In this document: positions 2,945 through 24,063 of the stretch, piece after piece | How the letters are laid out: each line of letters opens with the position of its first letter | Position numbering within the stretch: position 1 is the first letter of the stretch | Origin: Eucommia ulmoides | Lineage: Eukaryota; Streptophyta; Magnoliopsida; Garryales; Eucommiaceae | Reading direction: 5' to 3' | Length of the DNA: 64,000 nt | Assembly (NCBI GenBank): GCA_016647705.1 | Contig: JAENRU010000487.1 | Location: forward strand, 806,001 to 870,000 | Made by a program: the position numbers and the translations under genes | Notes under the pieces: model-generated | Told to the model about the DNA's origin: nothing | Databases searched by the model: none | The model's input: only the letters and a program-made list of their open reading frames with translations

Positions 2945-3112
2945 ATTTACCCAAAAGAATATATAAACAAATTTATATTCAGAGGATCAGAGTTAAACAC
3001 ATGAGTAAAATTAAGGGGTTAAAGTATCATTTATCCAAAAGAATATATAAAAAAATCCATATTCCGAGGATTAGAGTTAAAACATGAGTAAAATTAAGGG
3101 GTTAATAATGTT
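2945..3112. repeat. tandem duplication of about 84 bp in TPS intron 6
   Basis: Two adjacent copies share ccaaaagaatatataaa, gaggat-agagttaaa and atgagtaaaattaagggg, with an 83-84 bp period and a few mismatches. Nearby at 2589-2642 is a (TG)n/(AG)n-rich microsatellite. Confidence 0.75.
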
Positions 3113-3137
3113 GTTTACTCAAAATACCAACACTTAC

Positions 3138-3395
3138 CGCAGAGGTTCCTCTGTCATTGCAGAGTCGAACTATAAGTGAGGTATTGTACACCAGGTCTTG
3201 ACACTGATTAAGAATATCAGTTATTTCATCTTCATTGTTGTCACAAGTTAGTGTTAGGCCTAGAAGTACAAGTAGACAAAGCAGAGGACCGGATGACGAA
3301 ATCCACCCATTTTCCATGTATTCCTGCAGTGATGGCGTGTACCCTTCGTTATACCACCTTGCTTCCATTAACAAAGCGTTGCAAAAATTCGACCA
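3138..3395 (-). pseudogene. terpene synthase exon 6 (start of NSE/DTE motif)
   Basis: This 258-nt exon is open from W to the GCG|GTAAGT donor. It carries EARWYNEGYTPSLQEYMENG and ends with the NDRGTSA part of the second metal-binding motif. The usual hydrophobic residue after ND is Arg here. Confidence 0.85.
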
Positions 3396-3540
3396 CTGTA
3401 AAAAAATTAAAAATATTATTTTTTTGTTGGATAGTCTTGGGCCTCTCTCTCAATTTCAAAAACTAGCTCATGAAGTCAGACTTTTTCTCACACTTATAAT
3501 CTAACAACCTGCCACTTCTACATCTGATGTTGGATACACC

Positions 3541-3975
3541 CAATATTTTTTAATGTGTTAACATGACTTTATGCCTCTATGGTTTGACCAAATTGTACTT
3601 TACACTCTTATAGTATTTTTATTAGCACTTATCCATATGGTTCAGATTAAAGCACAACAGTTATATTTTTTGTTAAAATTAACGGTCAAACCTCAAAATG
3701 AAAATTAATAAATTATTTGATATTAAGTGACATTTACACTCCGAGATTGGATTAGGTCGGAAATATCCATTTGAACCTATTTTCTCTTTCCTTTATTCCT
3801 CCAAGTTGGGTATATAACTTAAATTTATTATTTTATGCAATTATGTTAATTATTTAATAGTTCTACTTAAATATGAACCACATGGGTAAAATGATGAAAC
3901 AATTACCATAGCGGTATAAAGTACAATTTGATCAAAATACATGAAGACAAAATGTAATTAACCATTTCCTAATTT
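3541..3975. mobile_element. MITE in TPS intron 5 (TTAATTACACTTTGTC family)
   Basis: The ends are inverted. The left arm reads ...ggtttgaccaaattgtacttta and the right arm, reversed, ...ttgatcaaattgtactttata. The body contains the ttaaaattaacggtcaaa signature found in sister copies at 6838, 23341, 24161 and elsewhere. No coding capacity. Exact ends were not determined. Confidence 0.6.
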
Positions 3976-4269
3976 TGTTAAGTCATTTTGTAATTTAGAA
4001 AAAGAACATGCAAAAATTATGACGGCTTTTGGTCAACAGTATACGAAATTAAAATTTTAACTCATACAATTCACACGATACAATAATTTTTCCAGAAGCC
4101 CAAACTCAGTGTAATATATAAAAGTTACTGTAATATTTTCATATAAAAAATTTCAACAATTTTTATAACGTACAGTGACTTTTAAACTTTTGATAGTAAA
4201 TTTGTATTTCTAAAAAAATTATTATAACGCGTGGACTCATAAAATAAAATTTTGAATTATTATATGTAC

Positions 4270-4411
4270 CTCTTTATGGAGAAGAGGCAACACTGAGGTC
4301 CAACCCATTTGGCTTTGGATTTGAAAAGCCATTTCATTTGTAGTATCATAGAGTGTCTGAAAACATATCTTGATACAGTCTGGGAGCCCTTCAATTTCCT
4401 TAAAATCCCAC
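4270..4411 (-). pseudogene. terpene synthase exon 5
   Basis: This 142-nt exon is open, flanked by a tatcag acceptor and a GAG|GTACAT donor. It encodes the LPDCIKICFQTLYDTTNEMA segment of the alpha domain. No damage was seen. Confidence 0.85.
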
Positions 4412-4744
4412 CTGATAATATCATTTCAAAGTATTAGTAGAGAATTTAATGAATTCGAAAATATTATTAATGATTTTGAACAGAACTAAATGAATTATGC
4501 TCAGCACTTGGTTCTAATTGGTATATTTTCATCATTTCATCATTTAGTTAAACTCAACAACAATTCAATCTTCTCTCTTTCAATATCAGAAAAATATTAA
4601 GAAAAAACATTGTAGGTTCAGTAAACTAACAAAATGACAAAATATCCCAATTAGAATGCCACATGTTGAGCACAACCTATTTTCATCGAAAACCAATAAC
4701 GCAGTTTTTAATTTTGTTGGATTAAAACAAATGTAGAATTTGAG

Positions 4745-5170
4745 GTGGAATTTGGTTAGTGTTTTTGTTTTTCTGTTTCTACTTCTAATAAATTGGGATC
4801 AAAATTCTATTTTCGTTCTAGAGTATTTCAGGTATAGAAACATGTTTGGTAATGACCATTATCTTGAAATTGTTTCTTTTAATTTATAAGAACAGAAACA
4901 TGAAACACGTTTGGTTACAACATTTGTTCTTTTTTCTTTAAATGTATAGTGGTCGGCATAGTAGTGGTGGGAATAGTTTTGTGGGAGTGAATATGAATCA
5001 AATTATTTTTTGCTTCTCAGATTCTTAAGGAATTTAGGAAATACTCCCAAATTACTCCTAAAATTTTGAGAACAAAAACATTTTTACCAAATGCGTTTTT
5101 CTACATTAATCTCAAAATTTTAGGAGTAACAACAGAAATCAAAGAACAAAAACAGTAACCAAACGAGATC
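4745..5170. mobile_element. MITE-like inverted-repeat element in TPS intron 4
   Basis: The left end, tttggttagtgtttttgtt, is matched in inverted form at the right end by aacaaaaacagtaaccaaa. Internal arms repeat cgtttggtta motifs. No frame is present. The target duplication is unclear, so the superfamily is not assigned. Confidence 0.5.
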
Positions 5171-5798
5171 TGAATGACCAAATCTCAAGATCCACATAGT
5201 AGGGCTGTAAATGAACCAAGTAGTTCGTAAACTACTTAAGTTTGGCTCGATAATAACTCGTTCGAAACCCGTTCTTTTAATAAATGAACCAAGTTCAAGC
5301 TTTTAATTTAGCTCATTTATTAAATAAATAAACATCATATTTCGAGCTGGACTTGTTAATATTCATGACCAACTCGAATAATATAAAATTAAATTATTTT
5401 GTTATATTTTTAGTATGAAAAAAAAATAGTAAAGTAGACTCTTAAATTTTTTTTAATAGTATAATTTTACATATCTAATCGTTCTAAATGTTAATTCAAT
5501 TTACTTTTAATTTTATAAATACTCGTTTAACCTATTTGATTACTATAATAAACTGATTATTTGTAAATTTATGTTGATCTGTTGTAATTTTTATACTTTG
5601 ATTCGCTCGTAAATTAAATATTTGAATTTTGTATATAGAAACAATAACAAATAATTAATTTTATTAAAAAAGATATATTATTTATGTAGTTCTTAAGTAT
5701 TAAAATTTAATTAATAAATATTTAAAAAAAAAAAACCGTGAACAATTTGATTATTAAATTAACTAAATTTGAACATAAAGTTTCAAGTTCATCTCAAA

Positions 5799-5901
5799 CT
5801 TGAATAGTATAAAAAATAAACGAAAGTTAGAACACTTAATATTCAACCTCGAACTTGAATAGTATAAAAAATAAACGAAAGTTAGAACACTTAATATTCA
5901 A
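5799..5901. repeat. 55-bp tandem duplication in TPS intron 4
   Basis: The unit beginning cttgaatagtataaaaaata is repeated exactly once with a 55-bp period, just before the exon 4 donor side. It appears to be a recent slippage or unequal exchange event. Confidence 0.85.
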
Positions 5902-5981
5902 CTCAACTCGTTTTCAACTCGTTTCCAGCCTTACCAATGACACTCGCACCATATATACTTAAGGTGGACCAAGAGACAAAC

Positions 5982-6191
5982 CTGTTGACAGCATTGGTGA
6001 AGTGTTGTAGCTCTTGGAATGAGCCATAAACATCATCAATGACTAGGATTAATTTAATGACTTTTGTAAGCCATTTTCTGAAATTCCCATGTTGAGGCTC
6101 ATAAGCAACCCCAACTGCCCATAAATAACTCTCCACCATTATATCCCTTGTGAAACTCAATTTCTCTGCTATCCCAATATTCCTCCACCAC
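5982..6191 (-). pseudogene. terpene synthase exon 4, with damaged DDxxD motif
   Basis: The exon starts with the conserved WWR after a T-rich acceptor and contains LSFTRDIMVES and VIDDVYGSFQEL. Most family members read DDVYDVYG, so three codons are missing and the last Asp of DDxxD is gone. The length, 210 nt, equals the usual 219 minus 9, which supports a clean deletion. Both splice sites are canonical. Confidence 0.85.
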
Positions 6192-6837
6192 CTAAAAAAA
6201 ATATATATATAATATTCTTCTGAGAACCGGACAGATCTAAAAAATTGATTGAGATATGTTTGTTTTTTTTTTTTAAATATTTATTAGATATTTAATCAGG
6301 AAGATTTATCTAAAATTTTAAGGATTTTAATTGAATTTTTATAAAAATATTTATGTAAAAAAATAAATTAAAAGCTGTGCGGGGCTTGAGTTCCGCCTTG
6401 GCTTAACCTGACTCTGCCACAACAAGTAGAGTGTGTTTGAAAATAATTTCTGAAAATTTTGAAAATAATTTTTGAAAATTATGAAAAGATGATTGATTTA
6501 GGGTAATTTGAAAAAGTAACATAAAAATAGAATTTTATAGATTTTTTTGTGAACAGTTTACGAAATTAAAGTTTTAGCTCATGCAATCCATGCACTACGG
6601 TAATCTTTTCAGAAATTCAAAGTTACTATAACATAAAAGTTATTGTAATTTTTTTTTATGTAAAAATTTATAGTAACTTTTTATGTATATAGTGATTTTT
6701 AGACTTTTGACAATATTTTTGGACTTCTGAAAAAAGTGCCACGATCGTGAATTTATAGGGGTTAAAATTTTAATTTAGTGGATTGTTGAACAAAAAAACT
6801 CAATATTTATTAATATAATCAAATTAAAATTTTAAAA

Positions 6838-7153
6838 ATTGAATTGTGATGACACTTTGTCCTCCCATAGTTTGACCGAATTATATTTTATACCTTTGTA
6901 GTATTTTCTCATAGTTACCTTTTGAGATTCAAATTTAAGTGTAATGGTTAAATAATTAACATAATTTTATGAAATAACAAATTTACCCGATATACCCGAC
7001 CCGACAGACTTGAAAAAAATAAAATAAAGTCAAACGAAAATTACCCGATCTGATCCAACTCGTAAATATAAATGTCAGTTAGTATTAAATAATTTATTAA
7101 TTTTAATTTTTTGTGATTTAACCTTTAACTTTAACGAAAAAATATATCACTTA
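6838..7153. mobile_element. partial MITE of the same family in TPS intron 3
   Basis: It starts with the gtgatgacactttgtcc / ggtttgaccgaattatatttta-like arm and contains the taaggttaaataattaac and tttaactttaacg segments of the family. It stops abruptly near 7153 without the complementary right arm. Degenerate; no coding capacity. Confidence 0.5.
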
Positions 7154-7273
7154 CCAAAATAATATAAGGGGAAGCGAAATTTTGTGGATGGGGTGGTGAA
7201 GTGCCATTGACCCATATCATAAATATGTGTGGTTGTAATTTGCAAGTCCCTTCTATCTTTTGTTATTTATTAC

Positions 7274-7589
7274 CTGGACATCTCCATCAGATCTTGTCTG
7301 TGTGTGGCTTGAACCATGCTGAAGTTCAGCTTCGCCAGCCTCACCAGCGTCCGATTCGACGGCGTACCGGCGTCTTCCTCGGCTTCTGAGATGTGTTTTT
7401 TAACGTTGTACCAGTCCACTTTCCGGCTTAACGGCAGCTCCGACGGTCGTTGAACGTTCGAAAATAGCATTGCTTCTTCCAGTACGGTTTCTCCTTCCAT
7501 GGCAAAGCTTGAGGCTTCGAAAAGCTCAACCATTGTTTTGGAGTTCGAGTCTAATTTTGTTTCCTTAAACTTGCCATTCTCGTCCATGT
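7274..7589 (-). pseudogene. terpene synthase exon 3, shortened, acceptor probably shifted
   Basis: The frame includes the FEASSFAMEGE and LAKLNFSMVQATHRQDL family segments and ends at a donor CAG|GTAATA. The family homology (LFESS before DMDENG) extends upstream to about 7605, where no AG acceptor exists. The next AG after a pyrimidine-rich run is at 7590-7591 and keeps the frame. At 316 nt the exon is shorter than the usual roughly 370-380 nt. About 20 residues before the RPSELPL segment are also missing relative to typical family members. Confidence 0.75.
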
Positions 7590-7801
7590 CTGAAGATTCA
7601 AACAAAGCACAAACAAGTTTTAGAGAGAGAGAGAGATGGAGGTGGGGTCATATACATGTCAATAGTACCACAGTGCAGTTTGATTATTGTTTTTTTTTTG
7701 GGAAAAATACATTATAAACTCGAGTTGTTTACCTATTAAATATTAAAAAAAAAAAAATTACTGAATGAAAATAGTTTTTAACTTATTTACCGAAATAATG
7801 C

Positions 7802-8139
7802 ATTTCGCCCTTGTGAAGGGCGAAATCGAAAAATTTTTTTTTTTTTTTTTTTTTTGATCCCGCGCTTGTGAACAGCGGGATAAAAAAAAATTAATTTAAT
7901 TTGATCCCGCCCTTGCGAAGGGCGGGATCAATAATTTTTTTTTTTTTTTATTTGATCCCGCCCTTCACAAGGGCGGGATCAAATGGATTTTTTTTTTTTT
8001 TAAAAATGTGATCCCGCCCTTATGAAGGGCGGGATCACCAAACGGCGACCAGCCGTTAACACGGCTGGTCGCCGTTTGCTTTGGCCGGTCAAACGACCGG
8101 CCAAAGCTGCAGAGAAGGCAGCCTAAAAAGGTTGCCTTC
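7802..8139. repeat. array of eight GC-rich palindromes in the left TIR
   Basis: Palindromes lie at 7802-7826 (atttcgccc...gggcgaaat), 7857-7882, 7903-7929, 7954-7980 and 8011-8037 (gatcccgccc...gggcgggatc types), 8041-8078 (aacggcgaccagcc with its inverse), 8083-8102 (ggccggt..accggcc) and 8114-8139 (gaaggcagcc..ggttgccttc). The first five are spaced about 46-57 bp and separated by A/T runs. All can form strong stems in DNA or RNA. The right TIR has the mirror set. Confidence 0.9.
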
Positions 8140-8251
8140 TCCCCTTTTTTTTTTTTTTTCGCAGGCTATTTTTTGTTTTTTTATAGGTATAGGTATAGGT
8201 TTAGCTTTAATTTGAAATTTTAAAATCTCGATATATGTGCACAATTTCGCC

Positions 8252-8386
8252 TATAAATATCACTTACCGGATTTCATTAAAATTCACATTTCTTCATTTA
8301 CTCCTTCTCTCATTTGTTCTTCATTTTGATATTTTTTTGTTCTAGTTACACTTCTTCTATTCAGACTTCTACTCCTCTATTCACAG
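8252..8386 (+). promoter_or_regulatory. left-TIR promoter and leader exon of the transposase gene
   Basis: TATAAATA at 8252-8259 is followed by a C/T-rich leader of about 100 nt ending CACAG|GTTAGT, a strong splice donor at 8387. A matching acceptor (tgatag) ends at 11912, nine bases before the transposase ATG. The predicted leader intron, 8387-11912, spans the whole tandem array. The same block occurs in the right TIR facing inward. Transcription itself is inferred. Confidence 0.65.
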
Positions 8387-8699
8387 GTTAGTATATTTTT
8401 AACGTTTTTTTAATTTATTTGTTAATTTAATTAGTATATTTTTTATCTTTATTTGTTAGTTAGTTGGTTAGTTTAATTTGTTAATTTAATTGTTGAATTA
8501 AAAATTATACTTTGGTCATTTTTACATGTTTAAGAAAATATAAAATAATATATTATTTCAAAAAAAATGTTAGTTAGTTAGTTTAATTTTTTACTCTAGC
8601 TATTTAATTAAAAAAATATACACTTTGACCCCTAAAAGTATAACAACTAGAAAAATATAAATTTTTAATATATTATTTTAAAATAAATTATTAGTTAGT

Positions 8700-11640
8700 T
8701 TGTTTGTTTTGTTAATTTAATTTGTTTAATTAGTTGGTTAGTTTAATTTGTTAATTTAGTTGTTAAATTAAAAATTACACTTTGTCTCCTTTCACATGTG
8801 TAGAAAAATATACACTTTGGCCCCTAAAATTTTTTCAATTACAAAAATATAAAATTTTCAACCTAACGTTTTAAAATAAATTGTTAGTTAGTTTCATTTT
8901 TGAATTTTGTTATTTAATTTAAAATGTATTTATTTAATTTGTTAATTTAGTTGTTAAATTAAAAATTACACTTTCGCCCCATGTGTACGAAAATATAAAT
9001 CAACATATTACATTTTTAGTTAGTTTAATTTTCTAATTTAGCTATTTAATTAAAAATACACTTTGGCCCCTGAAATTTTGATAATTAGAAAAATATAAAA
9101 TTAAAATACCTATTATTTTGTTTAATTTGTTAATTTAGTTGTTAAATTAAAAATTACACTTTCGCCCCATGTGTACGAAAATATAAATCAACATATTACA
9201 TTTTTAGTTAGTTTAATTTTCTAATTTAGCTATTTAATTAAAAATACACTTTGGCCACTGAAATTTTGATAATTAGAAAAATATAAAATTAAAATACCTA
9301 TTATTTTGTTTAATTTGTTAATTTAGTTGTTAAATTAAAAATTACACTTTCGCCCCGTTCACATGTGTACGAAAATATAAATCAACATATTACATTTTTA
9401 GTTAGTTTAATTTTGTAATTTAGCTATTTAATTAAAAATATACACTTTGGCCCCTTAAATTTTGATAATTAGAAAAATATAAAATTAAAATACCTATTAT
9501 TTGTTTAATTTAGTTGTTAAATTAAAAATTACACTTTGTCTCCTTTCACATGTGTAGAAAAATATACACTTTGGCCCCTGAAATTTTTTCAATTACAAAA
9601 ATATAAAATTTTCAACCTAACGTTTTAAAATAAATTGTTAGTTAGTTTCATTTTTGAATTTTGTTATTTAATTTAAAATGTATTTATTTAATTTGTTAAT
9701 TTAGTTGTTAAATTAAAAATTACACTTTCGCCCCATGTGTACGAAAATATAAATCAACATATTACATTTTTAGTTAGTTTAATTTTCTAATTTAGCTATT
9801 TAATTAAAAATACACTTTGGCCCCTGAAATTTTGATAATTAGAAAAATATAAAATTAAAATACCTATTATTTTGTTTAATTTGTTAATTTAGTTGTTAAA
9901 TTAAAAATTACACTTTCGCCCCGTTCACATGTATAGGAAAATATAAATCAACATATTACATTTTTAGTTAGTTTAATTTTCTAATTTAGCTATTTAATTA
10001 AAAATATACACTTTGGCCCCTTAAATTTTGATAATTAGAAAAATATAAAATTAAAATACCTATTATTTGTTTAATTTAGTTGTTAAATTAAAAATTACAC
10101 TTTCGCCCCTTTCACATGTGTACGAAAATATACACTTTGGCCCTTGAAATTTTTTCAATTACAAAAATATTAAATATCAACCTATTGTTTTAAAATAAAT
10201 TGTTAGTTAGTTTCATTTTTTAATTTCGTTATTTAATTTAAAATGTATTTATTTAATTTGTTAATTTAGTTGTTAAATTAAAAATTACACTTTCGCCCCT
10301 TTCACATGTGTACGAAAATATACACTTTGGCTCTTGAAATTTTTTCAATTAGAAAAATATTAAATATTCAACCTATTGTTTTAAAATAAATTGTTAGTTA
10401 GTTTCATTTTTTAATTTCGTTATTTAATTTAAAATGTATTTATTTAATTTGTTAATTTAGTTGTTAAATTAAAAATTACACTTTCGCCCCTTTCACATGT
10501 GTACGAAAATATACACTTTGGCTCTTGAAATTTTTTCAATTAGAAAATTATTAAATATTCAACCTATTGTTTTAAAATAAATTGTTAGTTAGTTTCATTT
10601 TTTAATTTCGTTATTTAATTTAAAATGTATTTATTTAATTTGTTAATTTAGTTATTAAATTAAAAATTACACTTTCGCCCCTTTCACATGTGTACGAAAA
10701 TATACACTTTGGCTCTTGAAATTTTTTCAATTAGAAAAATATTAAATATTCAACCTATTGTTTTAAAATAAATTGTTAGTTAGTTTCATTTTTTAATTTC
10801 GTTATTTAATTTAAAATGTATTTATTTAATTTGTTAATTTAGTTGTTAAATTAAAAATTACACTTTCGCCCCTTTCACATGTGTACGAAAATATACACTT
10901 TGGCTCTTGAAATTTTTTCAATTAGAAAAATATTAAATATTCAACCTATTGTTTTAAAATAAATTGTTAGTTAGTTTCATTTTTTAATTTCGTTATTTAA
11001 TTTAAAATGTATTTATTTAATTTGTTAATTTAGTTGTTAAATTAAAAATTACACTTTCGCCCCTTTCACATGTGTACGAAAATATACACTTTGGCTCTTG
11101 AAATTTTTTCAATTAGAAAAATATTAAATATTCAACCTATTGTTTTAAAATAAATTGTTAGTTAGTTTCATTTTTTAATTTCGTTATTTAATTTAAAATG
11201 TATTTATTTAATTTGTTAATTTAGTTGTTAAATTAAAAATTACACTTTCGCCCCTTTCACATGTGTACGAAAATATACACTTTGGCTCTTGAAATTTTTT
11301 CAATTAGAAAAATATTAAATATTCAACCTATTGTTTTAAAATAAATTGTTAGTTAGTTTCATTTTTTAATTTCGTTATTTAATTTAAAATGTATTTATTT
11401 AATTTGTTAATTTAGTTGTTAAATTAAAAATTACACTTTCGCCCCTTTCACATGTGTACGAAAATATACACTTTGGCTCTTGAAATTTTTTCAATTAGAA
11501 AAATATTAAATATTCAACCTATTGTTTTAAAATAAATTGTTAGTTAGTTTCATTTTTTAATTTCGTTATTTAATTTAAAATGTATTTATTTAATTTGTTA
11601 ATTTAGTTATTAAATTAAAAATTACACTTTCGCCTCTTTC
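8700..11640. repeat. left tandem repeat array of the MULE (188-191 bp units)
   Basis: From 10104 to 11640 the marker tttcgcccctttcacatgtg recurs at 190 or 191 bp (10104, 10294, 10485, 10676, 10867, 11058, 11249, 11440, 11631), with units nearly identical. From about 8700 to 10100 the units are of two mixed types, including a 188-bp type with an ..ataaatcaacatattac.. segment. Each unit has tacactttsgcccc-like motifs and a CACATGTG palindrome. There is no coding capacity. The array lies in the predicted leader intron of the transposase gene. Confidence 0.93.
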
Positions 11641-11921
11641 ACATTGGAATATGATGTACAAATTGTGCACTTTCATTCCTCAAATTAATTGAATCTATTT
11701 AGTTGATATTAGCTTGACGTGGAATTTATATTCGATTTAGAGTTAAAGTTAAAATAATTATTGAATAAATTCAAAATAAGTAAAATATTAAGGATTGAAA
11801 ATAAATTACTCTAACCCATAAAAAATGAACACTATAAACCAACATACTTTTGTGATTGAGTTTTAGTTAACGATATTTTTTTCTTGTTTTGTTTTGCCTT
11901 GTCAAATGATAGCCGCTTGAA

Positions 11922-14722
11922 ATGGATCACGTTCGATTGTTATTGTATTGGGGTGGTAGAATATTGGAAGGTACGGAGTTCGGGGTTTGTTATAGTACAT
12001 CAGTTGTAAAATCTTTGGTTGTCCGTAGGGGAACAAGCTTAAATGAATTAATTGAGACGCTAAAACCATGTGTTCTTGAAGATGGGGTTACTGGAATTTT
12101 GAAACTAAAGTGTAGGATGCCGATGGCTCTTTTCGGGTCGAACTATAAATATACCTTGTTTTCTATCGAGGATGACTCAGCATTAAACCAAGTGCTTGAG
12201 TTACCTCTTTATATACCCTCCCTTCTTGCTGTTGAAGTATATGTAGAGATTGAACGGGCATTTGATGATGGTCCAAATTTTTTTCCCCCAAGTGGTCATT
12301 TTACCAACTTAATGACCCAGAGTTTAAATCCGTACAGTACCCAATCTGACGGACAATTTTTCGGCACCGTTCCCCAAGCAGTCCAATCTAATTACACCAT
12401 CCCACCCCCTTACAGTCTAGAACAATATCATTCCCACAATACTCCTATGCTGCACCCCCAATTACTTGAGTCTAATTACACCGTCCCACTCCCCTATATT
12501 CCAGAGCAAGATCATTCTCATAGTATGATTGACCGTGGTCATGGCACCAGCTCTGCTCTTCCACATCCCCATTATTCACCGAGTAGTCCGCCGCAAGATA
12601 ACATAAGTAATTATGGTGGTGACTTTGATACAATTGATAGTCGCGACGATGTGTCAGAAGAAGAGTTCGATGCGGATTTAGCGTTTCAGCCAGACGAAGA
12701 TGTAGATACTGGGCCTAGCGGGCAAGGGGGTGAAAATCAGCAATTGGAGTTAGACAATGTAATTTCATTTTTCAATAACTTGGAATGGGGTGACGACGAT
12801 GACTTGGCGAAATACGAGCCGAAGTTGCGGAAGAATTTTTGGACACCGGAGATGGACGAATTCCGTACTGGTATGGTCTTTAAGGACAAGGAACATCTCC
12901 AGCAGGCCGTCAAATTTTACCACTTGAAAAAGAACAAAGAGTTTTATGTCTCGCAAACGAACAAGAAGCTCTGGTCGATTAATTGTTCGCATGGATGCGA
13001 TTGGAGGTTGCGGGCGGGGAGGAAAAAAAGTCACGGTATGTTTGAGATTACACAGTATGAGGGGCAACACACATGTTTCTATAATCATACTGCTGTAGAT
13101 CATAAAAATTTGGATTCTGCACTCATTTCGAACCTAATACTTGGACAAGTAGAACAGGATCCAGAATTGAAGATTGGCGTCATTGTGGCTTACGTGAAGG
13201 AGGCTCATGGATACACTATCTCCTATAGAAAAGCTTGGTTGGCTAGATCTAAAGTCATTGAGACCTTGTTCGGAGATTGGGATGAATCATACCGGAAGTT
13301 ACCGAAATTTATGGTCGCGTTGCAGCACTACAATGCAGGTACGATTGTCGAGTGGCGCACTGTGTCGACTGATATGCCTGACTATAGGATGTTCGACATG
13401 GTATTTTGGGCATTCAAAGCTTCAGTCGACGGATGGCGTTATTGTCGCCCTGTAATCACCATTGACGGGACCCATTTGTATGGTAAATATGATGGAAAGA
13501 TTTTAATCGCCATAGGAATGACGTCGTCCAACAAGTGCTACCCATTGGCTTTTGCAGTCGTACCGACGGAGGATTACCGATGTTGGCGCTGGTTCATCTA
13601 CATGCTTAAGCGTCATATTGTCGGTGATCGTCCTGAGGTTACATTGATATCTGATAGACACGCCGGCATTATTAGTGCAGTTGACAATATTTGGCTTAAT
13701 CAACATAACGAGCCCCTCCGATATCATCGATTTTGTTTGCGGCACCTTTGTAGCAATTTCAATAAGATTGCTAAAAATCAGCATCTCAAAGATCTTGCTT
13801 GGAATGCAGGTGCTGCAACACAAATTCGAAAATACGATGCTATCATGGAAGAGATCAAAAAGATTGATGTTCAGGCGCATGCATGGTTGAGCAATCATGC
13901 ACCTTACAAATGGACCAGGGCACACGACAATGGTAAGCGTTGGGGAGTCATGACGACCAATTATGCAGAGGTATTTAACAATTGTTTAAAGGGTGCAAGA
14001 AATGTTCCAATAACTGCAGCCGTCAAGATTACGTTCTACAGGATGGTTAAATACTTTGATATTGGTCGACAACAAGCTTTAAAGGACTCAGCTGACGGTT
14101 ACGTATATGCTAAACACGTCGTTGATAAAATACAGAAATCTCAAGCCAAGTCTAAAACATACGAGATTCAAATATTCAATCGGTAATTTAGTATTCATTA
14201 TTATTTTTTCACGTTACATATAATTGTTACGACATAATTTAACAACTAAATATTTTTTTTTCTAGAGAGAATATGATATTCCATGTGAAAACTAGGAAGA
14301 CCCTTACTGGGGGCTTGATTCCTCATGAAGTCACACTAGGAGATAACCCTGATTGCACATGTGGGAAGTTTAAAATTTGGCGATATCCGTGCTCCCATAT
14401 GCTTGCGGCCACGGAGTATAGTGGAGTTAATGCATTCCGCTATATTGCTGCTGAGTATACAATGACAAACCAATTGATGGCATGGGAGTCTTCGTTTAGG
14501 CCGATTCTTCATGAGGACTACTGGCCAGAGACCAATTTTTCGAACCTCATTCCAGACCATGATAGACTTCGAGTTGTGCATCGTGGTCGACCCAATTCCA
14601 CTCGCATTCAAAACGAGATGGATCAGTCGCGCAGAACAATGACAAATCGTTGCGGTTTATGTTCCCAAACTGGACATGATAGGCGAAAATGTCCATCCCG
14701 ACCCCGCCATACACCCAATTGA
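11922..14722 (+). CDS. MULE transposase (MURA-like), two exons, 905 aa
   Basis: The catalytic protein for cut-and-paste transposition; acts on the TIRs. Exons 11922-14182 and 14266-14722; the 83-nt intron has GTAATT...TCTAG borders and splits an Arg codon. Domains: PB1-like N-terminus (1-110), Pro/Ser/His-rich linker (about 120-230), acidic stretch (235-300), Mutator DNA-binding zinc domain with C355, C359, H383, C385, MULE transposase domain with DDE candidates D515, D578 and E683 and the CxxH motif C605/H608, SWIM finger C784, C786, C796, H798, and a C-terminal CCHC knuckle C883, C886, H891, C896. All expected key residues are present and there is no stop or frameshift. The start is the first ATG after a predicted leader acceptor. 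Probably transcribed from the left TIR. The intact gene suggests autonomy. Confidence 0.95.
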
Positions 14723-14861
14723 TCTTATCGGTTTATTGTAATGAATGTTTATGCTATTTTTTTTTGTTATGTCAACTGTTATGTATTATTGTTGCGCATA
14801 TTGCCTTTATAATGAATCTTATATTTTGTTTATAAATATGATTAAATTTTAATTTCGTACT
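14678..14861. repeat. MULE internal inverted duplication, left copy
   Basis: This block contains the last 45 coding bases of the transposase, its stop, its 3' flank and the TATA-containing region upstream of the first small gene. It recurs inverted at 18988-19186 with few substitutions and small indels. Shared stretches include acccaattgatcttatcgg and ttgtttataaatatgatta. Confidence 0.92.
14831..14838 (+). promoter_or_regulatory. TATA box upstream of the first small MULE gene
   Basis: TATAAATA lies 43 bp before the ATG at 14881, in the 158-bp gap after the transposase stop. It is inside the block duplicated ahead of the PMD gene. Good spacing for a core promoter with a very short leader; inferred. 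Confidence 0.45.
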
Positions 14862-14880
14862 AAAATTAAAAGGATTGAAA

Positions 14881-15315
14881 ATGTACACGGTGAGAGATTT
14901 GTATCGTTCAATGGGACGTAACTGGCTTTTGGAAGACGAATTCTCATACTCTTTAGATCCAAGAGTTCGTTACTCTTCACGGTCGGTTGCAAGGATGCGG
15001 GAGGAATACACTTATCGTGTCAACCAATCAGAGGTTATGGTGGACGGATGCAGGCAATATAATATTCCAATAGTGCATCAATTGGCCAGAACAATGCCAA
15101 CAGACACGCCGCATAATCTTCAAATGGCGTTGCATCGCTACCGTGAAGAAAATAACCGAATGCAAATTCGAATTTTTCGACATGAGCTTAAAACGACGGC
15201 ACGTGAGCGTCTTGAACAAGGTTTGTTCGCCGAATCGCGTACTTACATGAGACATGCAAAGAGTCCTCAATATCAGTCAGATATTGAAATGTCTGATGAT
15301 GAGAGTAATGTTTAA
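14881..15315 (+). CDS. small MULE-encoded protein 1, 144 aa, unknown function
   Basis: The ATG at 14881 follows gattgaaa, and the frame ends in TAA at 15315. I do not recognise a family. The protein is Arg/Glu-rich, with a central EEYTYRVNQSE segment, a helical EENNRMQIR region and an acidic Ser-rich tail (EMSDDESNV) with casein-kinase-2-like sites. It is clearly similar to the next gene (YRVN and ENNRM blocks in the same order), so the two are paralogs. No signal peptide, membrane segment or known catalytic motif is visible. Position between transposase and the next gene, with its own TATA box, suggests an accessory role in transposition or in countering silencing, as other Mutator elements carry such extra genes (mudrB, VANDAL vanC); this is inference. 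Confidence 0.7.
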   Translation: MYTVRDLYRSMGRNWLLEDEFSYSLDPRVRYSSRSVARMREEYTYRVNQSEVMVDGCRQYNIPIVHQLARTMPTDTPHNLQMALHRYREENNRMQIRIFRHELKTTARERLEQGLFAESRTYMRHAKSPQYQSDIEMSDDESNV

Positions 15316-15602
15316 TGAAGTAACGTTGGTGAATTGTAGTTTAATTATGTATTTCCTTTGAAATCTAATGTATCATTTCTACGTTAAATTATAATAACGT
15401 TACTTCTCCCAAACAACTGACTTTTTCTCTTTCAATTGATAGGTGATGTTGGGTTAGTTTTTTTTTTAATTTAAGGCTCGTATACATAAGTTATAAAACA
15501 TAATTTTTCATTAATTATCTTTTTAAAAAACTAATTTTTTTGTGAACTCTTAATTTGCAGTATAATATTTGTAAAGAAACTGTTCAGCCTAAAATTTTCG
15601 TA

Positions 15603-16109
15603 ATGTCTTCACATATTAATTCAAGTGAAGAAAGTTCATATGGTTTTTCAAGTGAGGAGAACTCATATGGTGTTTGGGGTTGGCATGGACCGTGGGATCA
15701 CCAAAGATGTTGGGTTTTAAAACCATATTATGATGATTACTGGAGTGATCAAGAGACCAACCCGATAGAGTATCGCGTCGGTCTACGCCAAGAATGGGAA
15801 TACAGGGTGAATGAGTCTAACAACCTTGTATTTTGTTTGAGAAATCTTAATGCACCAGTTCCGCATCGTCGAAGTCTTCAGATGCCTCGACGATGTATAA
15901 TTGATGACACAACCGAGATTGAAGATGCTATTACACGAATTCGCCTGGAGAATAATCGAATGTTGTTGCGCAGAAATAGATATTATCTACTACAACTAGC
16001 CAATGAAATGGCTGCCGCAAGCAACAGAGCACTCTCTCCAAACGAATACCATAACGTGATAAATAACAATGAATATTTGTCTGAGGGGTACATGTCGAAT
16101 GAAGAATAA
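15603..16109 (+). CDS. small MULE-encoded protein 2, 168 aa, paralog of protein 1
   Basis: The ATG at 15603 (MSSHINSSEESSYG) opens a frame to the TAA at 16109. The codons upstream are open but have no ATG, and a good splice acceptor (aatttgcag, ending at 15560) lies 43 bases upstream, so a 5' leader intron is likely. The N-terminus has two SSEExSYG repeats and a Trp-rich WGWHGPW stretch. The centre has EWEYRVNESN and LENNRM blocks matching protein 1, and the tail is acidic (SEGYMSNEE). No recognised domain. It ends 438 bp from the convergent PMD gene. Likely arose by duplication of protein 1 or the reverse; function unknown. Confidence 0.65.
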   Translation: MSSHINSSEESSYGFSSEENSYGVWGWHGPWDHQRCWVLKPYYDDYWSDQETNPIEYRVGLRQEWEYRVNESNNLVFCLRNLNAPVPHRRSLQMPRRCIIDDTTEIEDAITRIRLENNRMLLRRNRYYLLQLANEMAAASNRALSPNEYHNVINNNEYLSEGYMSNEE

Positions 16110-16547
16110 TTAATTTTTGGCTCTGGTATTTTATTTTGGAGTGTTTTTATTGTCACTATTTTTATGATATTATGTACTGTATTTCTTATATACTGTCTTT
16201 GTTATGAGTTTTGTAACAAATATCGTTAAATTTGTTTCCGTCTATGTAATATTTTTTTAATATAATATTTATGATTATTTTAACTTTAATCGCCTTTAAT
16301 ATTATACCGTTACGAGTTGTTTTGCCTTTTTAAGAATCTTTCCGGAATGTTAGACACATTGCTCGATCTCTCATTTAAATTCTGTATCTATTTGCGAAGC
16401 AATATATACGGTACATCAACAACTTTCTAAATCTCCAGACGTTACAAAAAAATGTATTTACTAACTACATAAATTACTATATAACTATATATTTACAAAA
16501 AAAATATATTTACATTTCTATAACTAAACTATCAACTACATAACTAA
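16110..16547. other. convergent intergenic region in the MULE
   Basis: 438 bp between the stop codons of small protein 2 (+) and the PMD gene (-). It is AT-rich, has no frame, and should hold both 3' UTRs and terminators. No inverted repeat or clear poly(A) signal decides the ends. Confidence 0.5.
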
Positions 16548-18946
16548 TTATGTACCGCAAGGCCTCCGACGGACGTTCCTCCGCCCTCGTCGTTGTGCAA
16601 CAGGAGGTTCCTCAGCCTCCTCATGAACTTGTGTAACTTGTCCGAAGTTCGTGAACGCCTGATGCATACTCCCCGGGATAGCATCGACGTCGTCCTCGAA
16701 CCACGGCACCGGCGACACTTGTCTTTGCAATCTTGTGGGTTCGGCAAATGCCACCGGAGGAATGACGCCTGAAGTTGAAATAAATTCATCCATCTCCGGA
16801 GTGACGAATGACGATGACGGGTGTGTACCTAGCTGCGATGCGTAATGCGAATAAGGGTCATGCATCTGGTACACGTTGGATGGCCCAGCATCGTCACCCA
16901 TGCCGTACGAACTAGATGATCCGGCATGAGCGCCCATGCCGTACGTACTAGATGATCCGGCATAAGCGCCCATGCCGTACGATGTAGAAGGTTCGGCATC
17001 GCCCACACTACCTGGACGATAGGCATCAGAAGTCCATGGCTGAGGAGAAGGCTGAGGAGCAGCCTGAGGAGATGAAGGAACGTCAGCTGCCACATGGCGT
17101 GGTACTCCTCGATACATCCTCCCAATGGTGCCATCATTGATGGCATGAGCCAGCTCGATACCCGATTCTGCAGTACCGGACCGTAGGGTTAGATCACTCA
17201 AGCGTATCAAGTTTGATACCTCCGTATCCTACGAAACACATAAATTGGTTTAATTAATACATGAATAATAACAACATAATCTAACTCATATAACTAAACA
17301 AATGGTACAGTCAATGTGATCATACATCTAATCCCAGTCGTCCTCCTATTGGTAGATACCCAAATTGAGGTTGGTACGCCGGGTTGACCAAAAATCTTCG
17401 TGTGATTCGCCAATACCAATCTATGTATTCTTGGTCAACCCCTATCCCTTGCTCAAAATTGGCGACATCTGGTGCTTGCCGATTATTCCACGCAACTATA
17501 TGTGCATGGTGATGGTCAGCCCAGTTTGCACGGAAGTATCCTCGCCGAGTAATTTTGTGCAAGTTCCTGTCCCACATTATCGGTTCAGGAACCCCTTGGC
17601 GATAACCAAACTGTCGTAGCACGCGGAGGGGATACGTGTACTCGACAATCTCATAGCATATTAGGGGCAACTTTGCCATCCAAATATCTTCTCCATCTTT
17701 AGTATATGGAGGCAAAGTCGGCAAGGTATAGGGCATCCAAATGACCTGTAAAATAAAATATAAACAAACAAATAAAAAAATTAAAATTTCGATATAAGTA
17801 AATAAATAACCTCGTCATTCTTCAAGCGATCTAACTGATCGCGATACACCACCAAAATATGCATCGGCAAATTATCCAAATTAAATTGAAGAGTCCACCT
17901 GTACACCAAAAATATAAATCATAAGTTTAATATCCATAAATAAATATCTATTACATGATAAATGAAATTAAAAATAAAATACTAATTACTTACCAATAAC
18001 CCCTCGGAGCAGCTGGGAACTTCAAGTCGCCGCCGTAGTCGAGCTCTCCGAATGATATATTATAGTCGGGGAGAGGGACTACTTCAGGCCGAAGCCTTGG
18101 AAATCGCTCCCAAGCCCAACACTCCAACAAAAATAGGCACCCGGCAATGTGTTTCGTGTTGGGCTTCGTCGCCTTACAGAGCTCGCGGTAGAGGATCGCT
18201 AGGGTCGCACTGCCCCAGCTATACTTGACGAAAGGTGTCAAGTCACGCAGCAGTAGGAGGTAGGCTAACTTAACTCTGTTGTGTGATTTATCAGAAAACA
18301 ACATCTCACCAAGCATAAGCAAGCAATATGCACGTGCGTAGCAATGCATAACCTCCTCGTCGGCCTCGTCAGGAACTATAGCAAAGGTATCCCGTAACCA
18401 CTTCAGCGTCAAAGACCCATTCCTAATCTTATCCACTGGTGGTTGCACTCCGAGTAGCTCACCGCAGAGTCTCTGCCAGACGGTATCCTCATGCGAGTCA
18501 TCATTCTGGATAACTGGCAACCCATGCACGGGTAACCCCAATAAGACGGTCACGTCCTGCAATGTGACAGTCATCTCCCCGACGGGTAGATGGAAAGTGT
18601 GCGTCTCCGGACGCCATCTCTCTACCAACGCGGTTATGAGGGCTCTATCTAACCGCTTCGGCCACAACCTAAATGGGCCGTACAAACCAACTGATTCTAT
18701 TAACTGTATAACTCTAGGGGGGACATTTTCTCTCCATTCCCCTACATCGTGTCCAACACAGTCAAAAGTATTGATATCCTGAAACATTTAATAAGACATA
18801 ATAAATAACATTAAAAAATTAAAAAACTTAAATAAAAAAAAAACAAATGCAATAACCTAAATGTTTACCTGCGCTAACCAAACTAGTTCGGACCTGTGCT
18901 GTCCCTGTTGGTGTAGAACTGAAGTATCTTCAGGCCCAGGATGCAT
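16548..18946 (-). CDS. plant mobile domain (PMD) protein in the MULE, five exons, 683 aa
   Basis: PMD proteins occur in plant transposons and as domesticated host genes (MAIL1/MAIN family) involved in silencing and genome integrity; their biochemistry is unsettled. Coding exons: 18946-18869, 18778-17994, 17898-17811, 17745-17326, 17228-16548, all with GT/AG borders and matching phases. Exon 1 encodes MHPGPEDTSVLHQQG...HRSELVW, the classic PMD start. Exon 2 holds the core, with GLYGPFRLWPKRLDRALI, ERWRPETHTFHLPVGEMTVT and LQDVTVLLGLPV blocks. The C-terminal part is disordered, with three 12-residue SYGMGxxAGSS repeats and a basic RRGRRNVRRR tail that could be a nuclear signal. It is convergent with the transposase. 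A splice acceptor ends two bases before the ATG, fitting splicing from the right-TIR leader. No damage seen. Confidence 0.93.
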
Positions 18947-18987
18947 AGCTGAAATTTTTTCCCACAACACTCGTGGTAAATTTGTTA

Positions 18988-19186
18988 GTACGAAATTAAA
19001 ATTTAATCATATTTATAAACAAAATATAAGATTCATTATAAAGAAATGTGCGCGACAAGTGCATAAAATTTATAATACATAAAAGTTGACATAACAAAAA
19101 AATAAAGTAGCATAAACATTCATTACAATAAACCGATAAGATCAATTGGGTGCAAGGCAGGGTCGGGATAGACATTTTCGCCTATC
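18988..19186. repeat. MULE internal inverted duplication, right copy
   Basis: Inverted copy of 14678-14861: the transposase 3' coding end, stop and downstream flank, including the TATAAATA (19010-19017, minus strand). It lies 42 bp before the PMD start codon, inside the predicted PMD leader intron. At its outer edge homology stops at gatagg and the tandem array begins. Confidence 0.92.
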
Positions 19187-19189
19187 AAA

Positions 19190-21060
19190 ATTTAATAACT
19201 AAATTAACAAATTAAACAAATAATAGGTATTTAAATTTTATATTTTTCTAATTGTCAAATTTTCAGGGGCCAAAGTGTATATTTTTAATTAAATAGCTAA
19301 ATTAGAAAATTAAACTAACTAAAAGTGTAATATGTTGATTTATATTTTCCTACACATGTGAAAGGGGCGAAAGTGTAATTTTTAATTTAACAACTAAATT
19401 AAACAAATAATAGGTATTTTAATTTTATATTTTTCTAATTATCAAAATTTAAGGGGCCAAAGTGTATATTTTTAATTAAATAGCTAAATTAAAAAATAAA
19501 ACTAACTAAAAGTGTAATTTTTAATTTAACAACTAAATTAACAAATTAAATAAATACATTTTAAATTAAATAACAAAATTCAAAAATGAAACTAACTAAC
19601 AATTTATTTTAAAATAATAGGTTGAAATTTTATATTTTTGTAATTGAAAAAATTTCAGGGGCCAAAGTGTATATTTTTCTACACATGTGAAAAGGGCGAA
19701 AGTGTAATTTTTAATTTAACAACTAAATTAACAAATTAAATAAATACATTTTAAATTAAATAACGAAATTAAAAAATGAAACTAACTAATAATTTATTTT
19801 AAAACAATAGGTTGATATTTAATATTTTTCTAATTGAAAAAATTTCAAGGGCCAAAGTGTATATTTTCGTACACATGTGAAAGGGGCGAAAGTGTAATTT
19901 TTAATTTAACAACTAAATTAACAAATTAAATAAATACATTTTAAATTAAATAACGAAATTAAAAAATGAAACTAACTAATAATTTATTTTAAAACAATAG
20001 GTTGATATTTAATATTTTTCTAATTGAAAAAATTTCAAGGGCCAAAGTGTATATTTTCGTACACATGTGAAAGGGGCGAAAGTGTAATTTTTAATTTAAC
20101 AACTAAATTAACAAATTAAATAAATACATTTTAAATTAAATAACAAAATTAAAAAATGAAACTAACTAACAATTTATTTTAAAACAATAGGTTGAATATT
20201 TAATATTTTTCTAATTGAAAAAATTTCAAGGGCCAAAGTATATATTTTCGTACACATGTGAAAGGGGCGAAAGTGTAATTTTTAATTTAACAACTAAATT
20301 AAACAAATAATAGGTATTTTAATTTTATATTTTTCTAATTATCAAAATTTAAGGGGCCAAAGTGTATATTTTTAATTAAATAGCTAAATTAAAAAATTAA
20401 ACTAACTAAAAATGTAATATGTTGATTTATATTTTCGTACACATGTGAACGGGGTGAAAGTGTAATTTTTAATTTAACAACTAAATTAACAAATTAAATA
20501 AATACATTTTAAATTAAATAACGAAATTAAAAAATGAAATTAACTAATAATTTATTTTAAAACAATAGGTTGAATATTTAATATTTTTCTAATTGAAAAA
20601 ATTTCAAGGGCCAAAGTGTATATTTTCCTACACATGTGAACGGGACGAAAGTATAATTTTTAATTTAACAACTAAATTAAACAAATAATAGGTATTTTAA
20701 TTTTATATTTTTTTAATTATCAAAATTTAAGGGGCCAAAGTGTATATTTTTAATTAAATAGCTAAATTAAAAAATTAAACTAACTAAAAATGTAATATGT
20801 TGATTTATATTTTCGTACACATGTGAAAGGGGCGAAAGTGTAATTTTTAATTTAACAACTAAATTAATAAATTAAATAAATACATTTTAAATTAAATAAC
20901 AAAATTAAAAAATGAAACTAACTAACAATTTATTTTAAAACAATAGGTTGAATATTTAATATTTTTTTCAGGGGTCAAAGTGTATATTTTTCTACATATG
21001 TGAAAGGAGACAAAGTGTAATTTTTAATTTAACAACTAAATTAACAAATTAAACTAACCA
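19190..21060. repeat. right tandem repeat array of the MULE
   Basis: Same unit families as the left array, in inverted orientation, with markers cacatgtgaaaggggcgaaa and ggggccaaagtgtata. Mixed spacing of about 190 bp and shorter truncated units. It is shorter and less homogeneous than the left array. It lies in the predicted PMD leader intron. Confidence 0.9.
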
Positions 21061-21408
21061 ACTAATTAAACAACTAAACCAACAAATTAAATTAACAAAA
21101 CAAACAAACTAACTAATAATTTATTTTAAAATAATATATTAAAAATTTATATTTTCCTAGTTGTTAAACTTTTAGGGGTCAAAGTGCATATTTTTTTTAA
21201 TTAAATAGCTAGAGTAAAAAATTAAACTAACTAACTAACATTTTTTTTAAAATAATATATTATTTTATATTTTCTTAAACATGTGAAAATGGTCAAAGTA
21301 TAATTTTTACTTCAACAATTAAATTAACCAACTAACTAACAAATAAAGGTAAAAAATATACTAATTAAATTAACAAATAAATTAAAAAAACGTTAAAAAT
21401 ATACTAAC

Positions 21409-21542
21409 CTGTGAATAGAGGAGTAGAAGTCTGAATAGAAGAAGTATAACTAGAACAAAAAATATCAAAATGAAGAACAAATGAGAGAAGGAGGAAATGA
21501 AGAAATGTGAATTTTAATGAAATCCGGCAAGTGATATTTATA
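21409..21542 (-). promoter_or_regulatory. right-TIR promoter and leader exon of the PMD gene
   Basis: On the minus strand TATAAATA (21542-21535) is followed by the same C/T-rich leader as in the left TIR and the donor CACAG|GTTAGT (exon end 21409). An acceptor ttcag ends at 18949, with CT then ATG following. The predicted leader intron is 2460 nt (21408-18949). Confidence 0.65.
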
Positions 21543-21614
21543 GGCGAAGTTGTGCACATATACCGAGATTTCAAAAATTCAAAAATTCAAATTCAAATTC
21601 AAAAGGGAGAGGGG

Positions 21615-21965
21615 AAAGGGAGGGGGGAAAGAAGGCAGCCTAAAGGCTGCCTTCTTTGCAGCTTTGGCCGGTCAAACGACCGGCCGAAGCAAACGGCGAC
21701 CAGCCGTGGGAACGGCTGGTCGCCGTCTGTTGATCCCGCCCTTCACAAGGGCGGGATCATATTTTTAATAAAAAAAAAAATTTCATTTGATCCCGCCCTT
21801 GTGAAGGGCGGGATCAAATAAAAAAAAAAAAAAAATTTATTGATCCCGCCCTTCGTAAGGGCGGGATCAAATTAAATTAATTTTTTTTGATCCCGCTGTT
21901 CACAAGCGCGGGATCAAAAAAAAAAAAAAAATTCGATTTCGCCCTTCACAAGGGCGAAATGCATT
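21615..21965. repeat. array of GC-rich palindromes in the right TIR
   Basis: Mirror set of the left array: the ggcagcc stem, ggccggt/accggcc, aacggcgaccagcc stem, then gatcccgccc/gggcgggatc stems separated by A runs, ending with atttcgccc/gggcgaaat near 21935-21960. Stems stay self-complementary although loops and some stem bases differ between the TIRs. Confidence 0.9.
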
Positions 21966-22599
21966 ACTACGGTAAATAAGTTAAAAACTATTTTCATTCA
22001 GTAATTTTTTTTTTTTTAATATTTAATAGGTAAACAACTCTTATAAACTCTGACACTTTTCTAGATGATTCTTCTTGATTTGAGCTTTTCATTTTAAATT
22101 TTTTTTAGCATCTGTATTTATTCGATCCTCCCGTTAGAAATTCTGTCAAAACTAACCAAATGCTGAGAACGAATCCGTCATTTTATATTTTTCTATTTTT
22201 AAATATATATTTTTTTTCTTTGTTTTGACTTTCCTCTCGCCCTCCCTCCCACCCCCACCGGCCCCTATTATGAAGGGTGGAATCACCCCGGTAACAAGGG
22301 ATGTTACAGTGATTCCTCCCTGTTATGGGGGTGTTTGCACCCCTTCAACAAGGGGTGAAACTCCTCCTGTTTTCATAGGGGGGTGAACACCTCTTGTGAA
22401 ATGAAGGGGGAGAAAGAGAGAGGAAAAAAATTATTAAAAATAAGTAAAAATACTGTTTTGTCTCTATATTTTGTTAGTTTGGATGGAATTTCTGATGGAA
22501 TGATTAAATAAAAACGTCCTTATACTAAGAGAATTTAAAATGAAACACTCAAACGGAGAGAGACCATTTAGAAAAGTGTCAATACTTAGAGGATTTAAA

Positions 22600-23215
22600 A
22601 TATAATTTTTTTTCTTGTTTTTTTTGTTTCTGTTCCAAAAAATTGTGAAAGGGAAAGATAAAAATCGGTTTCTGTTCTTCAACCAACATTAAAATAGTTT
22701 GAGAGAGAGAGGGGGGGGGGGGGGGGGGGGGGAAGAGTGGTTTCCAAAAAATTGTGAAAAGGAAAGATATATGAAAATCTGTTTTTGTTCATGAACCAAC
22801 ATTAAAGAAGTTTTAGAGAGAGAGAGCATGGTGGGGTAATATACAAGTGAATAGGATCACAGTGGAAGAGTTTGATTACTGTTTTTTTTCCTGTCTCAAT
22901 AAATTGTGAAAGAGACAAATAAAAATATGTTTCTGTACTTGAACTAACAATTAAAAGAAGTTTTAGAGACGTGTAGAAAGTACACTTAGATTAAAACAGT
23001 TGAAGGACATCTTTAAGGTGAGAGAATTGAGTCTGCGAAAAAGCACTTGTCAGGAGGAGCAGTCACATACCCCGAACGAGTTAATTTTTCACTCTGTGTG
23101 GATAAAGAACACTCATACGAAAAAAAAATAAAAAATTAGAGAGATGGAGTGGTGGGATAATATATCAAGAGGGCTTTAATGTTCTTGAACCATCATTAAA
23201 GAATTTTGACCACTT
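22600..23215. repeat. tandemly duplicated intron segment in TPS intron 2
   Basis: Three to four imperfect copies of a roughly 120-150 bp unit, with markers aaattgtgaaagg, gaaccaacattaaa and gttttagagagagag. A further copy flanks the MULE on the other side (7600-7690). A run of about 27 G lies at 22706-22732. Confidence 0.7.
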
Positions 23216-23740: not shown

Positions 23741-23798
23741 TAAAAAAAAAAAATCCAAATTTCGAACCAAACAAACCCTAAAAGTATATTCTTTGTAC

Positions 23799-24063
23799 CT
23801 TGTGAAACATCATAACCATGTTGTCTGAGCAGCCTAAAGCATAGGGCAGTTGCATATAAGCCCTCCTCCTTCATGCTTGATCTTGATACTAGTATGCTTT
23901 CAAGGGCTTCCTTCATTTCTTCCTCAAATAGGGTTTTGAGTCCAAGTTTTCCAATGCTATCTATAAGCTCCAATTTGGGTTTAAATTCCACATGTTCTTC
24001 ACCAAACATGGCCTTAACTTCCTCCTTTAGCCTCTCTGCAAGTCTCTTATACTTCCGATCATC
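23799..24063 (-). pseudogene. terpene synthase exon 2
   Basis: This 265-nt exon is open throughout and encodes the N-terminal helical domain, ending in the conserved LCFRLLRQHGYDVSQ segment. The acceptor is tatgtag and the donor AAG|GTACAA, in phase 1. It is 16.2 kb from exon 3. Confidence 0.85.

Follow-up and report, generated by a model that had tools for sequence, protein, structure and literature searches.

MULEs transpose by a cut-and-paste mechanism. The maize MuDR element is about 5 kb long, compared to 14.3 kb for the element described here. MULEs are recognised by target site duplications (TSDs) of 8-11 bp and by long terminal inverted repeats (TIRs) (PMC6446971). For the MUDR group, Table 1 of the same paper lists a plant mobile domain (PMD) "in antisense for most of them"; its entry for MUDRAVI2 reads "PMD in most, often antisense", and MULE-Solanaceae_1 is given there with "unknown ORF and PMD (antisens)". 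The barley element Abermu is described with a transposase, a sense ORF2, a reverse ORFR and TIRs of 138-145 bp (PMC9168764). PMD-C genes are reported to have been captured by MULEs, with transposase fusions in grasses and Amborella (PMC5418596).

PMD proteins have also been linked to silencing. MAIN and MAIL1 are reported to be required for silencing (PMC7156037) and to act in the silencing of transposable elements, and element-encoded PMDs have been suggested as anti-silencing factors (PMC5418596, PMC8616336). VANC proteins carry DUF1985 and are described as binding short motifs of tandemly repeated non-coding DNA, some of which lies within introns of genes of the same element (PMC5735166).

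Here we describe an element within 64 kb of Eucommia ulmoides DNA (the whole stretch analysed, hereafter the window). Taken as a whole, the evidence is probably best explained by a structurally complete, possibly autonomous PMD-carrying MULE with a MuDR-like convergent layout, a PMD gene of putative accessory function and a copied right arm.

Element ends and terminal inverted repeats

The boundaries and terminal features are as follows.

7722-22040: whole MULE, 14.3 kb, defined by the duplication, matching ends and four open genes
7712..7721: left copy of the TSD, ttataaactc, exact repeat
22041..22050: right copy of the TSD, ttataaactc, exact repeat
7722..8478, plus strand: left TIR, gap-aligned part, 757 bp
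21317..22040, minus strand: right TIR, gap-aligned part, 724 bp
7802..8107: six perfect GC-rich hairpins of the left TIR, from a hairpin scan
21629..21960: six perfect GC-rich hairpins of the right TIR, from the same scan

The 10-bp duplication is exact. Its copies are spaced 14,329 bp apart and are the sole pair of identical 10-mers at that spacing among the 49,661 window positions compared; ttataaactc is absent from the remainder of the 64-kb window on both strands. The outermost 71 bp of the two ends are identical, and alignment of 7722-8478 with the reverse complement of 21317-22040 gave 672 identical columns of 716 (94%), with 49 gap columns. Together, the 10-bp exact duplication and the 757/724-bp TIRs have the structure that defines the MULE superfamily. 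Because the duplication and ends match, the gene models are open and domains are present, we accept the MULE structure, and we regard 7722-22040 as a structurally complete MULE with near certainty. A preliminary description of this DNA had proposed a complete MULE at these positions with near-perfect ends, and both proposals were borne out.

Perfect hairpins with arms of 9-13, loops of 2-8 and arms at least half GC occur 13 times in the 64 kb, and all except one lie inside the two TIRs (12/13, six per TIR). When the left and right TIRs were compared, differences were found at 3 of 140 positions in the stems of the six left-TIR hairpins, 8 of 44 in the loops and 33 of 532 other aligned positions. 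Stems were conserved relative to loops (Fisher p 0.0006) and to all the rest (p 0.03), and may serve as transposase sites or as self-templating palindromes. The hairpin pattern had no match in viral and prokaryote contigs, which are collections without plant genomes.

No second copy of the element was found in the 64-kb window. When the element was compared by BLAST with the remainder of the window (E ≤ 0.01), 23 short matches (20-52 bp) appeared without a low-complexity filter and one match (48 bp, E 0.005) with the filter. Rfam and tRNA scans found nothing. By eye, an apparent small inverted-repeat element at 22051-22590 adjoins the right TSD copy; its two ends carry gacacttttctag and agaaaagtgtc. 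The interval 22259-22400 is GC-rich, with imperfect palindromes that resemble the element's hairpins, and the element has no BLAST match there.

Insertion site

2134-7647 and 23743-24063, minus strand: terpene synthase gene, exons flanking the MULE, from Pfam matches

Six pieces of the flanks, picked as stop-free, were scanned, and all matched terpene synthase families, one of them just below the cut-off. The piece at 23743-24063 matches positions 21-113 of PF01397 (78.9 bits) and that at 7273-7647 matches positions 120-163, where its 34.9 bits fall slightly short of the 37.6 cut-off; pieces of the metal-binding domain follow farther on. As these PF01397 segments flank the MULE, it lies inside the terpene-synthase intron between them, which with the insertion is about 16 kb long. 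The flank is a plant-type terpene synthase, and the relatives of the element's genes are plant proteins. Inspection by eye also showed that 7616-7700 resembles 22810-22890 across the element, as if by local intron duplication, and that open frames at 37490-39920 and 56431-58283 (from the ORF list) resemble retrotransposon polymerase and integrase pieces.

Coding capacity

The element contains four gene models.

11922..14182, plus strand: transposase exon 1 (DBD_Tnp_Mut, MULE domain)
14266..14722, plus strand: transposase exon 2 (SWIM, CCHC knuckle)
14881..15315, plus strand: small gene 1, 144 aa, paralogue of small gene 2
15603..16109, plus strand: small gene 2, 168 aa, paralogue of small gene 1
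18869..18946, minus strand: PMD exon 1
17994..18778, minus strand: PMD exon 2, PF10536 at 204.3 bits
17811..17898, minus strand: PMD exon 3
17326..17745, minus strand: PMD exon 4, PF10536 at 55.5 bits
16548..17228, minus strand: PMD exon 5, tail without a Pfam match

The preliminary description had claimed an intact transposase with DDE candidates, SWIM and CCHC fingers, two paralogous small open frames, and an intact five-exon PMD gene facing the transposase, in two convergent units. Each of these claims stood up to analysis. The transposase and small genes are on the plus strand and the PMD gene is on the minus strand. The transposase model has two exons, a single GT-AG intron and 905 aa (895 aa with an alternative acceptor), and the PMD model has five exons, four GT-AG introns and 683 aa (680 aa with an alternative last acceptor); neither has an internal stop. 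The small genes, both downstream of the transposase and on its strand, encode proteins identical at 36 of 108 positions (single-target BLASTP E 6e-13), a score reached by 0 of 1000 shuffles.

Pfam matches of the transposase were MULE PF10551 (E 3.6e-17), DBD_Tnp_Mut (1.3e-7) and SWIM (3.8e-7), and a CCHC knuckle of the form CX2CX4HX4C is located at residue 883. Conservation was counted over 120 listed homologues, the best 120 of 127 at E ≤ 0.001. The DDE candidates are the commonest residue at their positions among listed homologues with a letter there (D515, 110/111; D578, 105/112; E683, 108/112); they are conserved, and their catalytic role is predicted. Four other residues (V445, W505, T534 and Q594) depart from those conserved in at least 93% of the listed homologues. 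Ranked by E-value, the top match to query residues 300-880 is a Liquidambar protein with 46% identity, and the matches listed also include proteins of Orobanche, Lactuca, Vitis, Camellia and others. A search of solved structures with exon 1 returned one match only, a cohesin subunit at E 0.077, which we took as chance.

The PF10536 matches of the PMD gene had E-values of 3.8e-60 on the exon-2 frame, where the score of 204.3 bits exceeds the curated cut-off of 34.9, and 6.9e-15 on the exon-4 frame. No Pfam match was found for the tail (16548-17117) at E ≤ 10. Of the 120 listed homologues (127 at E ≤ 0.001), 12 are predicted proteins that combine a PMD with a MULE transposase, and the association therefore recurs in other plants; some of these proteins are perhaps false fusions produced by gene prediction. 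Local identity of the PMD to these 12 was 27-54%. In 11 of them the PMD comes after the transposase on one strand, and in one (Sesamum) it comes first. Predicted proteins can show same-strand pairs only, and these counts are thus silent on how frequent the convergent layout is.

The exon-2 frame also matches the end of the DUF1985 profile weakly (E 0.0026; 18.2 bits against a curated cut-off of 35.1). Two Heliosperma PMD proteins match the same profile end (E 0.013-0.014), and DUF1985 was absent at E ≤ 1 from four of six other PMD-bearing proteins scanned. We treat this match, below the curated cut-off, as a lead. A literature search found no paper holding both "DUF1985" and "plant mobile domain". 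The structural model of the exon-2 frame had a mean pLDDT of 54.9, and no solved structure matched the frame at E ≤ 1.

Used by itself as a query, small gene 1 had no match at E 0.001 (10 candidates). With the two-sequence alignment as query, three relatives were found among 5.8 billion proteins at E ≤ 1, all with E < 1e-18 and two of them from Rhododendron griersonianum. They are 42-50% identical to small gene 2 and keep an ENNRM block that is invariant in the five-sequence alignment. Because relatives exist and this block is invariant, the two small frames appear to be genuine genes whose family has been sparsely sampled. In one Rhododendron relative (P0123), PF00389 lies N-terminally, perhaps through a gene-prediction fusion; neither small protein nor the other relatives (P0121, P0122) had a Pfam match at E ≤ 1. 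The model of small gene 2 contains two long helices (54-81 and 103-139), with block means of 66-94 over residues 51-160 and an overall mean pLDDT of 65. Of the 40 matches that a fold search with this model gave at E ≤ 10, none reached E ≤ 0.001. The C-terminal stretch of an Actinidia transposase-PMD protein (P0061) was considered as a further homologue of the small genes and rejected, as 323 and 148 of 1000 shuffles reached its scores.

Short tandem repeats are present in small gene 2 (15620-15675, 27 bp x 2.1) and in the PMD tail (16897-16982, 36 bp x 2.4). They recall the tandem peptide motifs described in variable parts of VANC.

Predicted promoters, leader introns and repeat arms

The regions between the TIRs and the start codons contain the following features.

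8251..8386, plus strand: TATA-like box to end of predicted leader exon, transposase unit, from sequence signals alone
8387, plus strand: donor GT of the predicted transposase leader
8387..11912, plus strand: predicted leader intron of the transposase unit, about 3.5 kb, from signals and repeats
8613-11644: about 190-bp tandem repeats of the left arm, 16 copies, 3.0 kb of the predicted leader intron
21409..21543, minus strand: mirrored TATA-like box to end of predicted leader exon, PMD unit, from the same kind of signals
21408, minus strand: donor GT of the predicted PMD leader
18949..21408, minus strand: predicted leader intron of the PMD unit, about 2.5 kb, from signals and repeats
19509-21053: about 190-bp tandem repeats of the right arm, 8.2 copies, 1.5 kb of the predicted leader intron

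An identical TATA-like box (8251 plus, 21543 minus) and splice donor (8387, 21408) occur in both TIRs, and splice acceptors stand before the start codons of the transposase and the PMD gene. Both units may therefore start in the TIRs, with predicted leader introns that are largely minisatellite. The approximately 190-bp repeats have a GC content of 19%. The 25 longest inverted pairs shown are 430 to 221 nt long and 91-98% identical, and pairs join different repeat units.

Origin of the right arm

The predicted PMD leader intron also contains a piece of transposase gene.

18979..19187, minus strand: inverted relic of transposase 3' end and 3' UTR, in the predicted PMD leader intron
14677..14867, plus strand: counterpart of the relic, transposase 3' end and 3' UTR

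The relic (209 bp) and 14677-14867 are identical in 181 of 190 aligned columns (95%), with 20 gap columns. Because this inverted relic lies in the predicted PMD leader intron, the right arm probably derives from a transposase-bearing arm from which the transposase body is now missing. At 95%, its identity resembles that of the TIRs (94%) and falls within the 91-98% of the inverted pairs, and the right arm may therefore date from one copying event. Upstream of the PMD gene, the relic shows the order transposase then PMD, as in 11 of the 12 listed PMD-bearing homologues. We propose that the right arm is an inverted copy of a transposase-bearing arm that lost the transposase body and became joined to a PMD gene. 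Copying of the arm by template jumping and tail-to-tail fusion of two units are both conceivable routes.

Retention of open frames and alternative explanations

Neutral drift of the coding DNA was simulated at 2, 2.5 and 3% per lineage since the arms split (1000 runs per gene, indels left out). These rates are half of the 5-6% arm divergence, and divergence of non-coding arms is thereby assumed for coding DNA. All four frames were stop-free in 0.6, 0.16 and 0.04% of cases, respectively, as the product of the per-gene fractions, which were 3-10% for the transposase, 5-16% for the PMD gene and 44-66% for the small genes. The transposase and PMD genes carry this result; the frames of the small genes say little since they stayed open in 44-66% of simulations.

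Judged by its sequence, the element is possibly autonomous. It might instead be structurally complete but dead or immobile, having inserted once and being now silenced, or needing the transposase of another copy. The four unusual transposase residues, the divergence of about 6% between the arms (44/716 columns) and the lack of a second copy within the 64-kb window favour this explanation, but the TSD is exact, the outermost 71 bp are identical and all four genes are open, and we consider a dead element possible though somewhat doubtful. We think it unlikely that the PMD and small genes are only passengers, captured sequence of no use to the element. Capture of host sequences by MULEs is reported (PMC5418596, PMC9168764) and open frames of the small genes would not be surprising by chance, at the fractions given above. 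The frame of the PMD gene, however, is uninterrupted across five exons, in a family most of whose members are listed with a PMD. It remained open in only 5-16% of neutral simulations, and the relatives of the small proteins have kept both the ENNRM block and 42-50% identity to small gene 2.

The arms themselves could have arisen as a dimer, through a tail-to-tail joining of two co-oriented transposase units, rather than as a TIR enlarged by copying. One unit would have kept the transposase and small genes, and the other would have lost its transposase and kept the PMD. The position of the relic before the PMD gene, in the transposase-PMD order of 11 of the 12 listed homologues, agrees with such a dimer. 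Yet most of the MUDR group is listed with an antisense PMD, and convergence may thus predate this element, while the like identity of TIRs, repeats and relic suits a single copying event equally well. A dimer is therefore a tentative explanation to which we give less than even weight, and we retain a structurally complete, possibly autonomous MULE with a copied right arm as the preferred reading.

Proposed function

Under this preferred reading, both TIRs would act as inward promoters and give rise to two convergent messenger units, one with the transposase and the two small genes downstream of it and the other with the PMD gene. Each would begin with a leader exon spliced across a largely repeat-filled intron. 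The transposase would bind the TIRs, where the hairpin arrays may be its sites, and move the element by cut and paste. The PMD protein, possibly together with the small proteins, could be an accessory factor that protects the element against silencing. The most plausible route would be an action on the non-coding repeats of the element itself, in the way that VANC works in VANDALs. We advance this anti-silencing role, drawn by analogy, with considerable reserve.

A more specific version, which we regard as improbable, is that the PMD and the paralogous small helical proteins form an anti-silencing module that recognises the element's own approximately 190-bp repeats, with the PMD distantly related to the DUF1985 of VANC. 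If so, the module would lift silencing of both convergent units, PMD-MULEs and VANC-VANDALs would represent a single ancient anti-silencing strategy that split into two branches, and on the host side the silencing factors MAIN and MAIL1 would be its mirror image. The element is a compact test object for PMD anti-silencing, with an open PMD gene, an open transposase gene and mirrored repeats as a possible target, and it also offers a small-protein family with three homologues found. The inverted relic would record a step by which MULE arms reach several kb and a convergent two-unit element arises.

Comparison with known systems

The preliminary description had not recognised this combination of genes as previously described, and in this it was mostly mistaken. 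Because antisense PMDs in most of the MUDR group (PMC6446971) and the three-ORF layout of Abermu (PMC9168764) are published, the gene combination is a variant of a known layout. What may be new are the small-protein family, the predicted mirrored TIR promoters leading into largely repeat-filled predicted leader introns, the relic, and the hairpin-array ends with conserved stems. For the small-protein family, the relic and the repeat-filled leader introns, no description was found in a literature search of titles and abstract openings. The preliminary description made no mention of the relic, the predicted leader introns or the small proteins' relatives. The open transposase gene sets the element apart from Pack-MULEs, defined as non-autonomous elements with host gene fragments and without a transposase.

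MUDR-group MULEs as described in PMC6446971 share with this element a MULE transposase with SWIM, a 9-10 bp TSD and an opposite-strand PMD, all bounded by TIRs. Their TIRs are given as 30-320 bp, whereas here 0.72-0.76 kb can be aligned before the repeat arms begin. The Eucommia element differs further in its two small sense genes and the inverted transposase relic; the likeness is one of layout. The barley Hvu_Abermu type I element (8.2 kb, TIR 138-145 bp) likewise has a transposase, a downstream sense ORF2 and a reverse ORFR (PMC9168764). Matches of ORF2 are reported there from grasses and a PMD is not named for ORFR in that account; the likeness is one of described gene order.

VANDALs, with VANA, VANB and VANC, are also MULEs with accessory genes, and they have tandem repeats located ahead of the transposase gene as well as within introns. 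Their accessory protein has DUF1985 (PMC5735166), which the PMD here matches weakly, below the cut-off. Unlike this element, VANDALs are described as having short TIRs or none (PMC6446971). The composite TIR with tandem repeats is that of a foldback-type MULE, as in Muta1 and Tm1, in which the reported repeat units are 12-15 bp (PMC5225508, PMC3169594); here they are about 190 bp, lie in predicted leader introns and accompany four genes. Tandem-TIR MULEs have similarly enlarged TIR regions, but they are described as duplicating whole TIRs (PMC3310237), whereas the arm here contains repeats together with part of the transposase gene. Finally, a second gene faces the transposase, which is the MuDR-like convergent layout, and maize MuDR and this element both have two convergent genes (PMC6446971, PMC9168764). 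Compared by layout, the Eucommia element has a PMD gene in the place of mudrB and two small genes in addition.
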